DNA of 64,000 nucleotides, taken from positions 124,001 through 188,000 of the forward strand of contig CAMVLT010000003.1 of NCBI GenBank assembly GCA_947168395.1. The letters run 5' to 3'. This document shows, in pieces, positions 1,072 to 3,196 of the stretch; position 1 is the first letter of the stretch, and each line of letters begins with the position of its first letter. Both the position numbers and the translations under genes were made by a program. The notes beneath the pieces are model-generated. The model saw only the letters and a list, made by a program, of their open reading frames with translations. It had not been told where the DNA came from and ran no database searches. The stretch is from an uncultured Prevotellaceae bacterium. Lineage in GTDB: Bacteria > Bacteroidota > Bacteroidia > Bacteroidales > Bacteroidaceae.

Positions 1072-1142
1072 AAAAACTCCTAACCTCCTAACCTAATCTC
1101 TGGAAATGCCTTTGTACAAAGGGCTTTCGGGAGGTTAGGAGT
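1072..1142. repeat. Left inverted arm (71 bp) of the Rpn cassette, built of ACTCCTAACC words
   Basis: Reverse complement matches 2235-2305 at 67/71 positions; also a local hairpin (ACTCCTAACCTCC / GGAGGTTAGGAGT) containing the palindrome CCTTTGTACAAAGG. Confidence 0.95.
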
Positions 1143-1284
1143 TTGGCTGACTCCTAACCTACTCCTAACCCATCTTGTCTTCAGGCTGCCTCGCGAGGCA
1201 GATAATGTGGAAAAAAGCGTCGAAGTTTTGCAATTCTGCGAAATTATCGCTATTTTTGCACCACAATTTCAACGATATACGATT

Positions 1285-2177
1285 ATGGGAAAATATTTAG
1301 ACCCGAGAGCTGCCCTAACTTTCAAGAAGATATTCGGCGAGCACAAACACCTCCTCATTAGTCTGCTCAATGCCATGCTGCCGCTGAAAGAAGACGAGCA
1401 GGTGGAGAGCATCGAGTATTGGCCAGCCGAGAAAGTGCCCGACAGAATGCAAGCCGAAAAGGACAGTATTGTGGACGTGTGCTGCAAGGACAACAAGAAG
1501 CGTGAGTTCATCGTAGAAATGCAGATGACTTGGACAGATTCGTTCAAGAAGCGCGTGCTGCTTAACGCTTCTAAGGCATACGTGGCGCAGTCGAAAAAGG
1601 ACGATGACTATGAACTCTTGCAGCCTGTCTATGCGCTTAACTTCGTTAATGAGAATTTCATGGATGAAACAGATGACTACTATCACTATTTCCACCTCGT
1701 CCACGACAAGTACACCGAACAGGTGATTGACGGCCTGCACCTCATCTTTGTGGAACTGAAGAAGTTCAAGCCACAAACTTTCAGCGAAAAAAAATGCAGG
1801 TACTATGGCTCCGCTTCCTCACCGAAATCAACGACGAAACACGCGAAGTACCCATCGAATTGCTGGAGAATGCCGAAGTGAGCGAAGCCCTTGAAATCGT
1901 GGAACGTGCAGCTTTCAACGATGGTGAGATGCGAGCCTACGACAAGTTCTGGGACAACGTGAGTATCCAAAAAACATTAGACAATGCGCGCAAACGAGAG
2001 ATTAATGCGGTTAAACGGGAAGCAGAGAAAGCAATAGCAGATGCAAAAGAAGAAGCAAAATCATTGTTGAAGCAGAAGGACATTGATACCGCCCGTAAAC
2101 TGAAGGCAATCAACATTCCCACTACGAAGATTGCAGAAATAACTGGTCTCACCATCGAACAAATCGAAGCCCTATAA
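1285..2177 (+). pseudogene. Rpn family / PD-(D/E)XK nuclease-transposase-like protein, frame-interrupted (ORFs 1285-1881 and 1794-2177)
   Basis: MGKYLDPRAALTFKKIFGEHKHLLISLLNAMLP and VCCKDNKKREFIVEMQM fit PF12784/Rpn; C-terminal ARKLKAINIPTTKIAEITGLTIEQIEAL; the frames join if one base is added, or a -1 slip occurs, at the A8 run 1787-1794. Confidence 0.85.
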
Positions 2178-2234
2178 GTCACGAAGTCAGTTCTGGGTTA
2201 GGAGTTGGTTAGGAGTTGGTTAGGAGTTGCGGAC

Positions 2235-2305
2235 ACTCCTAACCTGCTGAAACCCCTTTCTACAAAGGCATTTCCAGAGATTAGGTTAGGAGGTTAGGAG
2301 TTTTT
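2235..2305. repeat. Right inverted arm (71 bp) of the Rpn cassette
   Basis: Inverted match to 1072-1142; further TAGGAGTTGGT words at 2197-2230. Confidence 0.95.
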
Positions 2306-2669: not shown

Positions 2670-2951
2670 TCACTTGTCATCATAATGGCCGTAGGCTCTC
2701 AGCACGAGCACCAATACTGCATCGTCGAAGATGTGGTAAACCAACCTGTGCTTCTTGGAGATTCGCCTGCTCCATCGACCTTGGGGCTCTCCTTTCAAGG
2801 GCTCGGGGTGACCAGTGCCAGTTTTGGGATGTTCCATCAGTTCAATAAGCATCTGTGTCATTTTCTGGAAAGCCTTTGGCTCATTGTGCTTCAGTTGCTG
2901 CATGTGCAACTTTGCCTCGTCAGTGTAATCAAGTCGATACATGATAATCAA
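2670..2951 (-). CDS. Txe/YoeB-family type II toxin
   Basis: MYRLDYTDEAKLHMQQLK...HPKTGTGHPEPLKGEPQGRWSRRISKKHRLVYHIFDDAVLVLVLRAYGHYDDK is the YoeB fold pattern; overlaps the antitoxin ORF. Confidence 0.9.
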   Translation of the reverse strand: MIIMYRLDYTDEAKLHMQQLKHNEPKAFQKMTQMLIELMEHPKTGTGHPEPLKGEPQGRWSRRISKKHRLVYHIFDDAVLVLVLRAYGHYDDK

Positions 2952-3196
2952 AGGCTACTGAGAAAATGGTTTAACTCCTCTACTGAGTTGATGCGATGTG
3001 TTTTGCCCTGGCGGTACTCTTCTTCGCCTTTGTCAAGACTGGCAAAGAATTCCTCCTTGGAAATCAGCGTGGGGTCTTCCTGCTTTTCGGCAACGAGCTT
3101 GCGCAGATATTTTGCCACACGCTTCAGCATGCTTTCATCCTCGGCAAGAGTGCCAAGGTTGCGGAGTATCTCGGCATTTAACTGTACGGCTGTCAT
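2948..3196 (-). CDS. Antitoxin partner of the YoeB-like toxin
   Basis: 82 aa, ATGA-overlap immediately upstream of the toxin; own TTAACTTTGC promoter-like site near 3220. Confidence 0.8.
   Translation of the reverse strand: MTAVQLNAEILRNLGTLAEDESMLKRVAKYLRKLVAEKQEDPTLISKEEFFASLDKGEEEYRQGKTHRINSVEELNHFLSSL

Follow-up and report, generated by a model that had tools for sequence, protein, structure and literature searches.

A frameshifted rpn segment between the hairpin arms of a probable non-autonomous VapE element in the Prevotella genus group

Introduction

REPINs are inverted doublets of hairpin-forming repeats whose mobilisation depends on a parent gene acting in trans, the RAYT, and RAYTs are Y1 tyrosine nucleases. 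Parvovirus-type ITRs bring together hairpin ends, initiator-binding repeats and a helicase of the superfamily-3 type. The Rep-ori system of the staphylococcal islands (SaPI/PICI) is built around a self-loading helicase (PDB 7pds, PMC9894130, PMC10061031), and the SaPI origin consists of repeats in opposite orientations (PMC9894130). Among the MITEs, BrickBuilt of Porphyromonas gingivalis is characterised by IS5-type ends of ~12 nt and by tandem repeats of 23 nt (PMC4596501).

The locus described here occupies positions 1072-2305 of a 64,000-nucleotide stretch of DNA (the window) and is probably a non-autonomous copy, with a frameshifted rpn segment as cargo, of a VapE hairpin element that has a single gene and belongs to the Prevotella genus group. 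As in SaPIs and PICIs, the helicase of this element belongs to the VapE family, and an origin function of its arms is suggested by their layout and by the co-variation of their repeat words with a helicase domain. In contrast to those islands, helicase and origin-like arms are here the whole element, a single gene in ~1.6 kb lacking integrase, primase and packaging genes, and high-copy short derivatives accompany it. The short forms are, like MITEs including BrickBuilt, non-autonomous, intergenic, multicopy inverted-repeat elements, but they have ~100-nt hairpin ends, element-specific words and a helicase as partner gene, and kinship with BrickBuilt was rejected on ends and repeats. Inverted hairpin doublets with a parent gene also recall REPIN/RAYT, although VapE, a helicase, is the parent here and no Y1 gene was seen in the arm pairs read. 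Unlike the parvovirus system, the family is chromosomal, has no capsid gene, and its VapE contains no recognised HUH nicking domain.

Structure of the window element

The left outer arm (1072-1142, plus strand) and the reverse complement of the right outer arm (2235-2305, minus strand) agree at 67 of 71 positions, exactly as originally predicted; the mismatches fall at 1117, 1124, 1129 and 1131, and a one-base offset leaves an identity of only 28/71. The inverted similarity reaches 103 nt at 88% (1068-1170 / 2207-2309). Both arms were delimited by inverted similarity, word counts, fold and a covariance model, R1, which matches the left arm at C3:125072-125170 of the window's own genome (G000) with 102 bits and the right arm at C3:126207-126305 with 102.5 bits. 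Counting copies with at most one mismatch, the window contains the word ACTCCTAACC 13 times where 2.3 would be expected, and 11 of the 13 copies lie inside the element. In the left arm, on the plus strand, the outer words ACTCCTAACC (1076-1085 and 1084-1093) are followed by the core hairpin with CCTTTGTACAAAGG (1109-1122) and an inverted word (1133-1142), while on the minus strand the right arm has its inverted word at 2235-2244, its core CCTTTCTACAAAGG at 2255-2268 and its outer words at 2284-2293 and 2292-2301. Extra words had been predicted to continue inward on both sides and do so: two direct words on the left (1150-1159 and 1161-1170, plus strand, part 1150-1170), in an arrangement common to a cargo-free doublet (L052), and three on the right (2196-2205, 2207-2216 and 2218-2227, minus strand, part 2196-2227). 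Of the predicted hairpins, the left one was reproduced (-35 kcal/mol), whereas the right arm has one mismatch in the closing GGAGGTTAGGAGT and its predicted fold is slightly different, a core hairpin with a separate word hairpin.

The discrete element that the arms delimit is about 1.23 kb long, in line with the boundary first proposed. The region 2306-2480, to which no strand is assigned, is a probable one-sided extension of the window copy. It contains TTTACC/TAAACC tandem repeats (2376-2440) bracketed by copies of TGCATAAACATGCA at 2345-2358 and 2467-2480, and the equivalent region adjoins one arm in most of the G000 copies read and is also part of a duplicated 322-bp unit discussed below.

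The rpn gene and the ownership of the arms

The identification of the enclosed gene as Rpn was correct as regards family, with matches to PF12784/TIGR01784 and a profile score of 120 bits against the curated PF12784 cut-off of 27.4, but its frameshift had been missed. The loss of one base in a run of eight A residues (1787-1794, plus strand), where homologues read GAAAAGAAAATGCAG or similar, splits the gene into an N-terminal reading frame that matches the PF12784 PDDEXK_2 profile (1285-1881, plus strand) and a C-terminal part in the -1 frame with a weak match to the TIGR01784 C-terminus (1794-2177, plus strand). For 19 close homologues the sequence read includes both the start and the stop; 18 of them are open over 282-364 codons, and L109 meets a stop immediately in the frame read. 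Judged from these sequences the window gene is probably broken, the alternatives being that the A run was misread in sequencing or allows programmed slippage.

The original prediction saw in this locus a transposon bounded by the arms, with the Rpn nuclease as its driving enzyme. The position of rpn between the arms speaks for this, as do two more rpn genes of G000 (C14:72171-72842 and C14:54171-54815), each with one arm no more than about 600 bp away, an association that was not seen in other species. However, matching inverted arms were absent within 700 bp of 80 close rpn homologues (53-96% identical), nine homologue loci having flanks too short for this test; the top arm scores (L166 and L170) belong to unrelated or weak repeats, and model R1 found no match over 579 kb of homologue flanks. 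Arms missing around close homologues are what the prediction itself had named as evidence against it. Moreover, when the DNA of the entire element was searched against 399 genus genomes (398 besides its own), rpn matches were confined to query positions 143-1136 (window 1202-2195) and ended at the inner arm edges, and no match in other genomes spanned rpn plus either arm, arm matches coming separately. Given that rpn and arm matches never span both, the rpn segment is foreign content between the arms, the captured stretch (1202-2195, plus strand) comprising rpn and its own upstream region, as matched by the rpn loci of other genomes. Together with the frameshift, these results led to rejection of an element bounded by Rpn, and movement driven by Rpn is the most improbable of the readings considered here.

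The arm family and its parent gene

It had been proposed that the arm be sought elsewhere in the genome, and it does recur there, including in copies without rpn: G000 contains 45 BLAST matches and 64 covariance-model matches, mostly as inverted pairs of 230-260 bp. Across the genus the covariance model finds arms in 135 of 399 genomes, with a maximum of 43 in one genome other than G000, in searches which, like those for inverted repeats, were tuned on the G000 arms and the best VapE hits. An arm of this family begins with two outer words, which are followed by the core hairpin, one inverted word and then the inner direct words, of which there are two or three; the core is shared by related doublets whose words are different (TACCTCAT, GGGTGACAC, GGGTGTAAC). 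In cargo-free doublets, a spacer of a few dozen bases takes the place of the rpn segment of the window copy. These doublets, though not the rpn copy, are MITE-like in being short and multicopy with inverted terminal repeats and no coding gene, and there is a parent with the same ends, the arms of VapE elements in G000 being matched by the same covariance model. A search of Rfam with the arms gave no match near threshold, ruling out a known RNA family, and the arm family is apparently widespread in Prevotella and undescribed. G000 also holds a second doublet family of ~400 bp with the word GGGTGACAC, the core GATGTACAAAGG and TTTACC repeats inside (C1:179820-180241, C2:132666-133058 and C12:72889-73281), for which no parent gene was found.

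Arm pairs that stand 1.5-1.75 kb apart (in G000, G018 and G020) each enclose one VapE-like gene of ~400 aa. A protein search of 150 genus genomes gave VapE matches in 86, to a short form of ~400 aa or a long one of ~700 aa (~36% identical), and the long form is a fair control since it represents this protein family in another setting. Terminal inverted repeats were present at 37 of 39 unique short-VapE loci, a proportion that may fail for the most diverged short VapE because the loci read were mostly best-scoring hits; among the long-VapE controls, repeats of that score were reached in 1 of 12. From arm to arm these elements have a median length of 1640 bp, the right arm beginning a median of 4 bp past the stop codon. 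The protein matches PF05272, DUF3874 and phage helicase/primase families, and with an E value of 1.4e-12 it matches PDB 7pds, whose entry notes a similarity to vapE of D. nodosus; we take this structure to be the SaPI5 Rep helicase (Qiao et al. 2022).

No short-VapE relative was confirmed in IMG/VR, and a viral origin was rejected; nor was short VapE present at E<=1e-85 in the 294 other genomes of the order Bacteroidales that were sampled. A VapE bearing the word of the window copy was not found in G000, which is 88% complete. The arm pairs read contained VapE, cargo or nothing, and no nuclease, transposase or recombinase, so that the transposase or recombinase which insertion sequences and DNA transposons carry between their ends is missing. 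In the openly accessible literature searched, no VapE with such ends is described.

Co-variation of repeat words with the VapE C-terminal domain

Each element has a private repeat word that is used throughout both its arms. The repeated 7-mers common to the two arms of one element number 5.3 on average, against 0.43 across different elements, and in 32 of 38 elements the best partner of the left arm is its own right arm. Word similarity follows the identity of the C-terminal 63 residues of VapE (341-403) more closely than that of the remaining protein, with a Mantel r of 0.58; with the helicase core removed the partial r is 0.47 (P 0.0005), and the value for the N-terminus is 0.25, Mantel tests removing shared ancestry only in part. 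Two copies in genome G071 (L211 and L252) have 91% DNA identity through the gene and right-arm region and differ in all words on both arms, while the framework is kept. The words may change jointly through end-to-end copying of the hairpin arms, and the word switching in G071 offers a set of natural variants from which to learn how iterons are read by a DNA-binding domain.

The same observations bear on two simpler accounts. The arms may be ordinary intergenic palindromes or two-way terminators, with rpn lying between two of them by chance, and it is true that several copies begin right after stop codons and have T-runs at their ends; the fixed inverted layout and spacing, the words private to each pair and the bracketing of one gene family at nearly all short-VapE loci nevertheless make this quite unlikely. 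Recombinase att sites have a core with arm-type words, and the core palindrome between direct words resembles such anatomy, which would make the locus an invertible segment between recombinase sites. That is less likely still, in view of the high copy number, the co-variation with a helicase domain and the lack of a recombinase between the arms in the loci read. Because rpn relatives are armless, the arms recur, VapE lies between such arms and words co-vary with its C-terminal domain, the best reading of 1072-2305 is that it is a copy of the VapE element which is not autonomous.

Mobility and a proposed mechanism

A 322-bp unit, consisting of a 93 bp extension and a doublet, is 95.7% identical at two sites of G000 (C7 and C33) with unrelated flanks, and a conserved gene pair that is adjacent in G211 and in 5 of 6 other species is split by an element at G000 C16. 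From these dispersed copies and the interrupted gene pair it is suggested that the family is mobile. Copies C43 and C28 (L062 and L099) have about 40 bp of host flank in common beyond the plain arm, as if copying had been one-ended and one end had been copied through. Target-site duplications were not recognised in 11 copies, whose exact far end is uncertain, and comparison of element sites with relatives yielded no exact empty site, the flanks there being rearranged as well.

These data leave some room for the arms of VapE being the origin of an integrated satellite- or plasmid-like replicon, now decaying and inherited, with the doublets as leftover origins that never transposed. VapE is related to SaPI Rep and no integration enzyme was found; furthermore, the G000 C18 element and G083 have a long matching flank in common, so that some copies are inherited in place. 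However, without copying and re-insertion it is hard to explain why 322-bp units at unrelated sites are nearly identical and why genomes contain arms by the dozen, and other replicon genes are absent between the arms. A relic origin is accordingly improbable, though less so than terminators, and a VapE element that is copied and re-inserted is preferred.

Given that the arms have the layout of the opposite-orientation repeats of the SaPI origin, the following working is proposed. The autonomous member, about 1.6 kb from arm to arm, would consist of one VapE helicase of ~400 residues, of the SaPI Rep kind, between inverted arms. By analogy with SaPI Rep at its origin, VapE probably binds the words and then starts copying; binding would be through its C-terminal domain. 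Two helicase rings, loaded in opposite directions on the inverted arms, would open the element, the arms would fold on the exposed strands, and a host polymerase would copy the element. Entry of the copies into new sites would be a further step, one left without an agent because the element encodes neither a nuclease nor a transposase and target-site duplications were not recognised. In the window copy, VapE or the short spacer is replaced by a ~1 kb rpn segment, and since rpn occupies the place of VapE, its movement would need VapE in trans. While the arms, their family and its tie to VapE are matters of observation, as are the co-variation of words with the VapE domain, the dispersed copies and the foreign nature of rpn, it is rather doubtful that binding, unwinding, copying and insertion follow exactly this path.

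It is conceivable, and put forward tentatively, that these elements form a class of mobile element without a nuclease, in which an origin-type helicase is combined with hairpin ends, words are rewritten jointly on both ends with the helicase C-terminal domain, sister copies come to have separate specificities, and short derivatives take up foreign genes such as rpn. Should the elements move in this way, a transposable element would require no more than a replication helicase with its origin, and we know of no system in which these two alone make one. The locus also illustrates how orphan nuclease or toxin-type genes can come to lie between mobile ends, and it advises against reading Rpn as a transposase from such a context.

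Genes beside the arms

Small toxin-antitoxin or defence-like genes lie between or beside several G000 arms: a GNAT-type remnant (C17:1633-2497), MNT (C1:242200-243055), a HicAB-like gene (C9:98414-98512) and RhuM (C14:53894-53992). These are suggestive, but such genes are not claimed as regular cargo because four more arm pairs, in other species, contained no recognisable cargo. Immediately outside the right end of the window element lies a YoeB-type toxin gene together with a partner (2670-3196, minus strand), the latter weakly DUF2683-like with a score under the Pfam cut-off.
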